From: a virus
IMG/VR virus record: IMGVR_UViG_3300001848_000569
Coordinates: 1 to 53,369 of that record
Reading direction: 5' to 3' (one strand)
Length of the DNA stretch: 53,369 nt
This document shows positions 16,189-39,151 of the stretch, piece after piece (position 1 is the stretch's first letter; every line of letters starts with the position of its first letter). Under the pieces are notes generated by a model that ran no database searches, was not told the DNA's origin, and saw only the letters and a list, made by a program, of their open reading frames with translations. The translations under genes were made by a program, and so were the position numbers.

Positions 16189-18234
16189 CTAAAAATTTTT
16201 ATTTTTTAAACCCATTCTTACCATCCTAGCTCCTATTAAAAATTTATCTGCAAGTTTAGCAGCTGCGGACATTGGAGAGTTAACTGATTCTTCTTTGATT
16301 ACTCTCCTTTGATATAAAGCCTGCTCATATAATAAACATCCACGAAAACTAGTAATTCTATCAAAGTTATCTTCATCATTATAAGCTATAAGTTCTCTTA
16401 TAAGCCCCTTATCCTTAATACGGGTATATCCTAATATCTCTTTAGCTATAGTAGTTTTGGTATCATCAGTATATATATACCCTATTACTTCAGTAAGATA
16501 TTTAATAATAAGATTATCTCCATTTAGTATAACTTCTCTAGTTGGATGAAAACCATAACTTCTTGAAACTTTAGAGGTTGGGTTTAAACCTTTAATTTCA
16601 TCCATTTGTTCTTGAAGTATATATTCTTTATTTTTATTTCTAAAATGATTAACTATACCCACATTGGCATTTTCCACTAATAATTTAGCATTATAGTATT
16701 CACAAAGATTAATTGCTATATCATACATTTCCTCAGCAGTTGGCCTTCTACCATTATAAGTAGCCACTATTTTTCGATCTGTTTGATCTAGTGCGTTATT
16801 ATTTGTACGTTTATATATAGTCAATGAAAATATAGAGCTAGAAGTAGGGGCAGCATCTTGATCTACACTATCTACCATAGCTATATAAAGACCAGTTTGT
16901 TTTTCAGGAGAAGGTGGTTCATAAATCCATATAGATCCCTCTATTCCATCGTCAGTTTGTTCAATTGGGTATTTTTCATAAGGAGAAGATATTCCTAATA
17001 TTTTAGGTTTAACTACTCCTTTATCATTTAATAACTCTAACCCATATCCAACATTCCCTATTGAACCAACAGTTTCTAATTCAGCTAGCCATTTGGTTAA
17101 AAGTTCAACTGGAAATTTATTTACCGACTTAGATAAAAATGCTTCTTGTGGTTTAATAGGGTGCTGCGAAATATAAGTTAAATATTGTCTTACCGATTTT
17201 TTCTTTTGTTTTGCTCTTTCTCCATCTAAATATTTCAAAGAAGAATCTATATCTGAATTACCATTATCATCAATATAAGGCTTTAAACATATATACTCTG
17301 GAACAAAATAACCACACTTTTTATTTTTAGCTATTTCAACATCATCCCATATATTATCATAAGCCATAAAATCATTAGCCTCTGGCTCGTAAAATATTTT
17401 CTTTAACCCCTCGCACTTATCCAAGTCCCCAACTGAACCATACGCTATAATTAAACCAGTAGTAAAGGAACCATCCATAGTAGCTGGTTTCATAAACTCA
17501 AGTACATCTAGTAAATTAGGAAATACCCCTGCTTCTTCTATAACTGATAAATCAATAGCACCACCTACAGATGATTCTGCTCTATCTTTAAATGTAAGTT
17601 TATGAAGTTCAGATAAATAACCAGATTCCACTTTTTTACCATCTATTATTTCTTCAAAAGCCATACGAAGATATGATGCTGTATCTGGTAATCTATTTTT
17701 ATAAAAATCAGTAAATTTATTTATATGACTTAAATAGTCTTTAGTAAAAACCCATGTTTTAGTAGCATATTTTTCATAAAATGATCCTAAATAATTCATA
17801 GACTTTCTATGAAAATGAAGATTATGAATTATAGGAACTGCATCTTTTAACGAGAAACCTTTCTGACGGGCCTTTAATGCAGCTAAATGCCTACCTACTT
17901 TTTTAGCCTTATCTATTTGTAAAAACCAATCAGCATCTAAATCCCAAAAATCTGGAAATGTAAATAACTTTTTCTTTTTATTATATATTGGACAATAATT
18001 TAAATACATATAATGAAGGCCAGATATTTTCTGACCATCCACAGTTATACCATTTTTTAATCTATCTTCTTCTATATCCCAAAATTCTTTATAGGCATAA
18101 GTTCCCGAAGGGTAAGTACAATAAGTACCATCCTTTAAAAAACGCATAGCTGGCTCTCTAAACTTATCTACATCTTTCCAAAGAGAGTTACCATCTAAAC
18201 CGTTTAAAGGATAATATCTAGTTGTCCAACCCAT
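16189..18234 (-). CDS. terL: Terminase large subunit
   Basis: A 681-residue DNA-packaging motor. The ATPase part has a Walker-A-like KARQKGFSLK at residues 121-130 and Walker B plus catalytic glutamate at 227-236 (IDLSVIEEAG). The C-terminal nuclease starts with IAMVDSVDQD at 451-460, giving the first metal-binding aspartates. Length and the aromatic N-terminus (LHYMYLNYCPI) match crAss-like terminases. The gene ends with TAG, the only non-TAA stop I found in the late module. It is coupled by TAATG overlap to the Hint-domain gene upstream and is followed by portal. Confidence 0.92.
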   Translation of the reverse strand: MGWTTRYYPLNGLDGNSLWKDVDKFREPAMRFLKDGTYCTYPSGTYAYKEFWDIEEDRLKNGITVDGQKISGLHYMYLNYCPIYNKKKKLFTFPDFWDLDADWFLQIDKAKKVGRHLAALKARQKGFSLKDAVPIIHNLHFHRKSMNYLGSFYEKYATKTWVFTKDYLSHINKFTDFYKNRLPDTASYLRMAFEEIIDGKKVESGYLSELHKLTFKDRAESSVGGAIDLSVIEEAGVFPNLLDVLEFMKPATMDGSFTTGLIIAYGSVGDLDKCEGLKKIFYEPEANDFMAYDNIWDDVEIAKNKKCGYFVPEYICLKPYIDDNGNSDIDSSLKYLDGERAKQKKKSVRQYLTYISQHPIKPQEAFLSKSVNKFPVELLTKWLAELETVGSIGNVGYGLELLNDKGVVKPKILGISSPYEKYPIEQTDDGIEGSIWIYEPPSPEKQTGLYIAMVDSVDQDAAPTSSSIFSLTIYKRTNNNALDQTDRKIVATYNGRRPTAEEMYDIAINLCEYYNAKLLVENANVGIVNHFRNKNKEYILQEQMDEIKGLNPTSKVSRSYGFHPTREVILNGDNLIIKYLTEVIGYIYTDDTKTTIAKEILGYTRIKDKGLIRELIAYNDEDNFDRITSFRGCLLYEQALYQRRVIKEESVNSPMSAAAKLADKFLIGARMVRMGLKNKNF

Positions 18235-18662
18235 TACTCATTTGTTTTACACATTATATTAGATATAAAAGCATTATCATAATTTTGAGTATATACTTTT
18301 ATAACTTTATGAACAGTATGTGGAAAATCACATAACTTTTGAAAATTACTATTTAATTTATCTCCACAGACTACTGTATCTTCATTACATAGATTTTGTA
18401 CTTCAACCCAACCTTTATTAGTAGTCATTACTTTTTGATCACAAGTACATACTAAATAAAATCCATTTTCAAGATATAGTTCTTTTAAAGAAATAGTCGG
18501 ACCAAAATTCTCACCAAATATTACTTCTATATCTTTTATATTATCCTCAACTATATTAAGATTTGAATCATAACATGGTATAGTTCCTCTATAGTTAAGT
18601 GAACTTAATAACTTAGTTAATCTATAACTAGTATTAATAAACATTTCTTGCCAAATAGCCAT
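18234..18662 (-). CDS. Hint (intein/hedgehog-like) domain protein next to terminase
   Basis: A 142-residue protein with features of a mini-intein. Cys30 in RGTIPCYDSN could be the first residue of the Hint fold. GFYLVCTCDQKVMTTNKGW matches the block-B strand pair, although the usual histidine is Gln. The end, DNAFISNIMCKTNE, resembles the C-terminal intein block that finishes in Asn, here Asn141 one residue before the stop. There is no endonuclease domain. The gene overlaps the terminase start by TAATG. It may be an active self-cleaving protein or a decayed or domesticated intein; terminase genes are frequent intein hosts. Function is unknown. Confidence 0.55.
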   Translation of the reverse strand: MAIWQEMFINTSYRLTKLLSSLNYRGTIPCYDSNLNIVEDNIKDIEVIFGENFGPTISLKELYLENGFYLVCTCDQKVMTTNKGWVEVQNLCNEDTVVCGDKLNSNFQKLCDFPHTVHKVIKVYTQNYDNAFISNIMCKTNE

Positions 18663-29129: not shown

Positions 29130-29502
29130 GGGCCATACAGGATTCGATAGTAATGATTAAGTAATTGGTTTATACATCGGTTTGGAATATCCCGATTAAT
29201 AAATAAGTTCTGAAAAATAGATGCTAACAATGTTAGACCTATGTTTGCTAAAAAGAAGGTAGCTACTACTTTCTATGCAAAGCGAGTATTGGCAGCTGCT
29301 TAAGTAATTAAGTAGTTCTTAGGAACAGAAAGCCAATAAATAGTTTACTAGTTCTATAAAAACTAGTTGGTGGAGTTTGCTCAATTTCAGGGCAGCCTTT
29401 TATTCTTTTGGAGAGTTAGTAAGATAAAACTCTATCCTAAGTATATAAATAAAACCAATTAATTAGCTTTGCTAGACCCCGGTTCAATTCCGGGATGGTC
29501 CA
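29130..29502 (+). ncRNA. ssrA: Phage tmRNA with unusually long 26-residue tag
   Basis: The ends form a tRNA-Ala-like acceptor: GGGCCAT at 29130 pairs with ATGGTCC at 29495, with a T arm CCCGG-TTCAATT-CCGGG before it and GGATTCGA after the 5' strand. The tag frame starts with the resume codon GCT at 29223, preceded by AATAGAT, and ends at TAA 29301-29303. The encoded tag begins ANNVRPMF, contains KKKVATTF and ends YAKRVLAAA. Usual bacterial tags are 8-15 residues, so this is long and basic, but the hydrophobic-Ala-Ala end keeps the protease signal. It would rescue stalled ribosomes or redirect products of degraded host messages. Confidence 0.85.
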
Positions 29503-29517
29503 CACAAAATTTCTAAT

Positions 29518-38315: not shown

Positions 38316-38361
38316 TAAAATAATGGGCCGAAGTGGTGAAAATGGTAGACACGCAAGACTT

Positions 38362-39070
38362 TAACTATAATTAATTTTTTTAATGTTTTATAAGGAACAT
38401 AAATTATATGGACCATATCTTTCTAAAGATGGTAGATTAAGAATATATTTGAAATATCTAGATGGTACTAATACTACCATTTCTTACCCAAAGTATTTGG
38501 TGGAAAAAGAAATAAATAGAATTTTAAATATTAATGAAACCATTGATCACATTGATGGTAATCCTCTTAATAACGATCTAGATAATTTAAGAATAATAAA
38601 TAGAAAAGAACATTCTATTCAGGATATAAAAAGACTTTACGATATCAAAGTAAAGTGTATATATTGTGGGACTGATTTTATAATAAAAGGTAACAAAATT
38701 AGAGACAGAAATAGAAATGGAAAATCTGGTCCATTTTGTTCTAAATCTTGTACTGGAAAATATGGAAGAGAACTACAACTTAATAATATATCCAAATTAT
38801 CTTCAATACCCATTGAAAGAAAGAAATATAAAAAGAAAGAATTAATAGAAATTGAGCCTAATATAAGAAATTATATTAGTGAACAGTAGAATATCGGCGA
38901 AAGCTTACTTGAAAGGAGTTGCTAACACCGAGGCATAGGCTATAAATTTATTATAGATTCAGCCGTAGAGACTAAATGCTACTGCACCTAAAATAGAAAT
39001 ATCATGGTGAAGAAATAGTCCAGACCACAAATTTATATTTATATAAAGTAGTGAAAACTATAGTGGTAAG
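38362..39070 (+). other. Group I self-splicing intron with HNH gene
   Basis: 709 bases. The exon ends in U and the intron in G, as expected. The core at the 3' side has GTAGAGACTA (near 38963) and AAGAAATAGTCC (near 39009), which supply the two strands of P7, and GAGTT at 38916-38920, which can pair with the exon end GACUU to form P1. If so, the open reading frame 38383-38889 sits in the P1 loop. Splicing is autocatalytic, with guanosine as cofactor. Confidence 0.82.
38383..38889 (+). CDS. Intron-encoded HNH endonuclease
   Basis: A 168-residue protein. The HNH motif is at residues 54-77: IDHIDGNPLNNDLDNLR and KEHS, with the first His56 and the final His77. A C-terminal zinc finger has KCIYCG (Cys92, Cys95) and FCSKSCTG. 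A Lys-rich tail follows. The N-terminal ~45 residues are a strand-rich DNA-binding part (YKEHKLYGPYLSKDGRLR). The enzyme would cut tRNA-Leu genes without intron and so spread the intron. Its gene starts 21 bases into the intron and ends before the intron core. Confidence 0.85.
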   Translation: MFYKEHKLYGPYLSKDGRLRIYLKYLDGTNTTISYPKYLVEKEINRILNINETIDHIDGNPLNNDLDNLRIINRKEHSIQDIKRLYDIKVKCIYCGTDFIIKGNKIRDRNRNGKSGPFCSKSCTGKYGRELQLNNISKLSSIPIERKKYKKKELIEIEPNIRNYISEQ

Positions 39071-39151
39071 AAAATCTTGTTGTCCGTAAAAGGCAGTGTG
39101 GGTTCGAGTCCCACCTTCGGTACTAAATTTAAAATATAATAGCTAAAATAA

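Follow-up and report, generated by a model that had tools for sequence, protein, structure and literature searches.

A tRNA-Leu(UAA) gene of a crAss-like phage is split directly after U34 by an insert that we interpret, with a probability of about 0.88, as a self-splicing, IC3-like group I intron carrying in its P1 loop an HNH gene that most likely encodes a homing endonuclease. The window, i.e. the whole stretch of 53,369 nucleotides analyzed here, belongs to a crAss-like phage (Crassvirales): it encodes a crassvirus major capsid protein (PF23898, Crass_capsid, E-value 1.6e-79), to which the closest named capsids, about 30% identical, are those from Flavobacterium psychrophilum phages. The intron-bearing locus is also present on a second viral contig (99.985% identity over 6504 bp, one mismatch), and an assembly artefact is therefore unlikely. 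Crass capsid matches were found in 0 of the 44 other intron-bearing viral records, and the controls gave none either. The phage also encodes a tmRNA (window positions 29130-29503) with an unusual predicted tag, ANNVRPMFAKKKVATTFYAKRVLAAA, and, on the reverse strand (18234-18662), an ORF of 142 aa that immediately precedes the gene for the terminase large subunit and weakly resembles an intein splicing domain (PF14890, E-value 0.0027); TerL inteins are known from crAss-like phages.

The 5' exon (38327..38361, like all intron features on the plus strand) reads from GCCGAAG to CAAGACUU and has U34 as its last nucleotide, and the 3' exon (39071..39122) extends from A35 through the discriminator A. 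Joined, they give 87 nt that fold as a type II tRNA-Leu with a 7-bp acceptor stem and the loop CUUAAAA. With introns allowed, ARAGORN reports a tRNA-Leu(taa) spanning 38327-39123, of which 709 nt are intron, and makes no intron-tRNA call in 300 shuffled versions of the region; in its default run the intron-bearing tRNA-Leu is missed. As UUA makes up 59% of the leucine codons in the 16 window genes counted, the spliced tRNA would be useful to the phage.

The insert itself (38362..39070, 709 nt, the last nucleotide being G) is, judged from its sequence by Rfam, a covariance model and the splice boundaries, a group I intron. The Rfam Intron_gpI model matches the window at 38834-39043 with 35.9 bits (E-value 2.8e-7), which falls short of the gathering score, 50; a scan of the whole window at the gathering cut-off did not pick up the intron, and at an E-value of 0.1 Rfam still missed three homologous introns. 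A covariance model made from 28 other aligned tRNA-Leu introns, with the window left out and the P2-P9 structure written by hand, gave one match in the window, at 38851-39076 (116.8 bits, E-value 7.1e-28). In the family alignment 91.8% of the cells are paired and 33 of the 53 pairs have changed on both sides, and when the structures are slid by 1-3 columns pairing falls to 25-41%, a control that, unlike column shuffles, allows for the relatedness of the sequences, although it somewhat favours the hand-derived structure over the slid ones. Compensatory changes occur in each of P7, P6, P4 and P9, including an A-U to U-A exchange in P7.

The core comprises the P2 hairpin CUAAUAUAA-GAAA-UUAUAUUAG (38858..38879, from the covariance model), the P3 5' strand CAGUAG (38884..38889), which overlaps the stop codon of the ORF and pairs with CUACUG at 38979-38984, P4-P5 (38894..38931; P4 UCGG/CCGA, P5 AGC..GCU with ACUU-GAAAG-GAGU), P6/P6a (38932..38964; GGC/GCC and CUAUAA/UUAUAG), the P7 strands GAGACUA (38968..38974) and UAGUCC (39016..39021), both placed by the family alignment and the covariance model, P8 (38985..39009; CACC/GGUG with AUA-GAAA-UAU) and P9 (39024..39067; ACCAC/GUGGU with two inner hairpins, one of them GAAA-looped). 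J7/3 is one nucleotide longer in the window than in the homologues, and the terminal G39070 is followed by AAAAUC. GAAA loops on P2 and P9 together with a compact core are what we take to define subgroup IC3, that of the tRNA introns; both loops are present in the predicted fold of the window, hence our designation IC3-like. The first-pass annotation of this DNA had read from it a clean type II tRNA with anticodon TAA in the joined exons, an intron after U34 (the site of cyanobacterial tRNA-Leu introns) that ends in G, P7 strands GAGACTA and TAGTCC, and an HNH gene; all of these agree with our results, and the group I core that it proposed is recovered from P3 to P9 with the guanosine site in P7.

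The same annotation had tentatively taken GAGTT at 38916-38920 for the guide, and on that basis had placed the HNH gene in the P1 loop. This guide is rejected, because in the alignment to ORF-less homologues, where the guide lies a few bases past the 5' splice site and is followed by P2, P3 and P4, GAGTT is the 3' strand of P5. The internal guide sequence, i.e. the 3' strand of P1, is instead UUGAGCC at 38852..38858, placed by the same alignment and by pairing read from the sequence: CUU of the 5' exon pairs with GAG (38854-38856), with U34.G at the splice site, and the UU of the guide can pair with AA of the 3' exon as P10. Since this guide lies within the last HNH codons, the ORF (38383..38889, 168 aa) does fill the P1 loop, as had been supposed, running through the guide and P2 and stopping inside P3. 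The long A/T-rich extension of P1 between the ORF ends is not stable above chance, 72 of 300 composition shuffles being as stable.

The ORF product contains HNH_3 (E-value 6e-7) and zf-FCS domains and matches PHROG 14913 (E-value 6e-21). We consider it a probable homing endonuclease acting on intronless tRNA-Leu genes. An intronless close relative of the locus, sought via the flanking genes, was not found: relatives of the SPFH-domain gene (44-49% identity) have no tRNA-Leu(UAA) beside them, and the only match of the downstream flanking gene is the duplicate contig. According to printed sequences, weak blastp matches and inspection, several long phage tRNA introns carry an HNH gene of another family, and some bacterial tRNA introns carry genes resembling PD-(D/E)XK nucleases. 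In a 595-kb phage (LR756511.1, L341 1168-1954) a tRNA-Leu(UAA) has a 700-nt intron with an HNH gene in P6 (P4-P7), a place unlike that found in the window.

Scans of viral sequences, with a splice-site pattern and then with a tRNA-blind core motif, AGTCCAGACYACAAA, gave at least 147 viral stretches. The second scan revealed at least 121 motif places, at least 106 of them with the other P7 strand or a surrounding tRNA. The first-pass annotation had considered intron-bearing tRNA genes rare in phages, which is at odds with our counts: at least 83 of the at least 106 cores lie in tRNA anticodon loops, most commonly in Leu(UAA) after U34 (at least 51), others being e.g. in Arg(UCU), CAU tRNAs and Asn, with the proviso that near-duplicates are included and that bacterial sequences could be present among the IMG/VR records. 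If more than one G is a possible intron end, the automatic splicer puts some tRNA identities a few bases off (e.g. "after 32", "ATA after 35"), and therefore only the counts for Leu(UAA) after U34 are relied on, with the "ATA after 35" group added after inspection. Among the matches listed, 54 of 83 introns are shorter than 260 nt and 18 of 83 are at least 600 nt long.

Many phages have ORF-less introns with the same site and boundaries as in the window, including a 735-kb phage (LR756501, L001), and the cultured jumbo Agrobacterium phage Atu_ph07 (MF403008.1, a 490-kb record) has its tRNA-Leu(UAA) (L340 1789-2150, at about 112,890-113,251 of the record) interrupted at this site by a group I intron of 278 nt; these two genomes serve as checks against bacterial contamination of IMG/VR records. 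The Atu_ph07 intron is unannotated, with annotated small ORFs adjoining it, and the paper on this phage gives 33 tRNAs and does not mention introns. We also found an empty site: the uninterrupted tRNA-Arg of Synechococcus phage S-SZBM1 nearly matches the joined exons of three intron-bearing phage tRNA-Arg genes (L105, L112 and L116) across the junction. In Pelagibacter phage HTVC120P (L344 1501-1655) a related intron core separates two annotated pieces of a capsid gene.

In bacteria, the core motif was found in 117 genome stretches, mostly within tRNA genes (identities assigned automatically): Leu(UAA) in Bacteroidota and Proteobacteria, Thr and Tyr in Clostridia, CAU tRNAs, and Arg(CCU) in Bartonella. 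Covariance model R1 has matches in 17 of the 59 cyanobacteria and 11 of the 198 Bacteroidota sampled, numbers that are lower bounds owing to stricter filters and that include tRNAs other than Leu. We calculated a tree of 98 cores over 187 columns, in which the bootstrap is unsettled. Phage and Bacteroidota Leu introns are mixed in supported clades (L150 with L222/L268; L165/L269 beside five phages). As Bacteroidota are the hosts of Crassvirales and possess such introns, the phage could have taken its intron, exons included, from a chromosomal tRNA-Leu(UAA) gene of its host and kept it. This origin is possible, but we regard it as unlikely: the cores nearest to that of the window are those of phage tRNA-Leu introns (up to 70% identity), Bacteroidota reaching 67% at best, the branch of the window has no firm placement, and some of the "bacterial" contigs may in fact stem from phages binned into MAGs. 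Introns resembling those of phages occur in tRNA-Leu genes on Bacteroidales and Bacilli contigs (L222, L227, L268); the HNH genes in L222 and L227 are similar to those found in phage introns, and in the tree the phage intron L150 is the sister of L222/L268, a resemblance for which host-phage transfer or phage contigs in MAGs are possible explanations.

The tree groups the window weakly (83/74) with the dnaB introns of the crAss-like phages Kolpuevirus and cr112_1, and blastn detects 75-78% identity to them over 98-123 bp. The core might thus have moved within Crassvirales between the dnaB helicase gene and the tRNA gene and changed its guide. This scenario seems to us rather improbable, as the grouping is not starred and the branches on the dnaB side are long, identity to protein-gene introns over the full core does not exceed 63%, and the guide of the window is that of the other tRNA-Leu introns and not that of the dnaB introns.

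The exons, the core fold, the position of the guide, the family of the ORF and the wide distribution among phages were obtained by computation, and from them we infer splicing, homing and competition between translation and folding, as follows. In the precursor RNA, CUU of the 5' exon would form P1 with the guide GAG, and cleavage after U34 by a guanosine held in P7 would release the 5' exon, which would then attack after G39070; the joined exons would yield tRNA-Leu(UAA), the reader of UUA. The HNH endonuclease most likely spreads the intron by cutting, in co-infecting relatives, tRNA-Leu alleles that lack it. Since the guide, P2 and one half of P3 are formed from the last HNH codons, ribozyme folding should compete with ORF translation. 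Splicing itself is deduced from the sequence, and the intron could in principle be a decayed one in a dead tRNA gene, which we consider very unlikely, given that all core helices pair, the features of both splice sites are intact, the ORF is open, and the exons make a clean tRNA that suits the codon usage.

The intron shares with the cyanobacterial tRNA-Leu(UAA) introns the tRNA, the site after U34, the guide UUGAGCC, the GAAA loop of P2 and the terminal G, but it resides in a phage, has an HNH gene in its P1 loop, and lies outside their clade, core identity not exceeding 55%. Direct descent from a cyanobacterial intron is the least credible origin, since despite the identical site and guide, and an AU test that does not reject joining the two (p 0.153, at a cost of 40 log-likelihood units), the tree sets the cyanobacterial Leu introns apart as one clade (100/100), they are the group least similar to the window (mean 54%), and the phage is crAss-like and not a cyanophage. 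Independent invasion of the same site, which the first-pass annotation had raised, is not supported as such: site and guide are common to the introns of phages, Bacteroidota, proteobacteria and cyanobacteria detected with one covariance model, so that common descent with horizontal spread appears at least as likely. The introns of alpha-proteobacterial tRNA-Arg(CCU), beta-proteobacterial tRNA-Ile(CAU) and cyanobacterial tRNA-fMet likewise have a compact IC3-like core in the anticodon loop and are found by the same motif or model, but differ in tRNA, site and endonuclease family; ORF-bearing members of the bacterial tRNA introns are known (I-Ssp6803I type). The phage introns of T4 td and Twort, and those of crAss-like dnaB, MCP, PolB and primase genes, are also group I introns with homing endonucleases, but sit in protein-coding genes, whereas the one described here sits in a tRNA gene. 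The phage tRNA-Leu(UAA) introns (L001, L016, L034, L125 and Atu_ph07) share tRNA, site and core with the window, but most lack an ORF, and those with one carry an HNH gene of another family, weakly similar to that of the window.

According to a 2014 review, all phage introns observed by then were in protein-coding genes (PMC3984707). A survey of the intron-rich crAss-like phages lists introns in core protein genes (PMC7886860), an overview of jumbo phages names introns in a protein gene only, and the huge-phage paper contains no word starting with "intron". Papers on integration at tRNA-Leu (PMC6811365, PMC3706429) concern attB sites and not introns. Phage group I introns with endonucleases being known, what appears new is the location in phage tRNA genes, for which we claim no priority, our literature search having been made without subscription papers and preprints.

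Such introns are overlooked by normal annotation, as both the ARAGORN default and the Rfam gathering cut-off miss the one in the window. Should their true frequency be that indicated by the motif scan, the tRNAs of phages have been undercounted, and it becomes possible to test, in the cultured Atu_ph07 among others, how tRNA-Leu(UAA) introns have spread, a question of long standing. We tentatively suggest, at somewhat less than even odds, that tRNA group I introns have in phages a major reservoir of which hardly anything is on record, that there is exchange in both directions between the tRNA genes of phages and those of bacteria, and that phages may have carried tRNA-Leu(UAA) introns from one bacterial phylum to another, the cyanobacteria perhaps among them.
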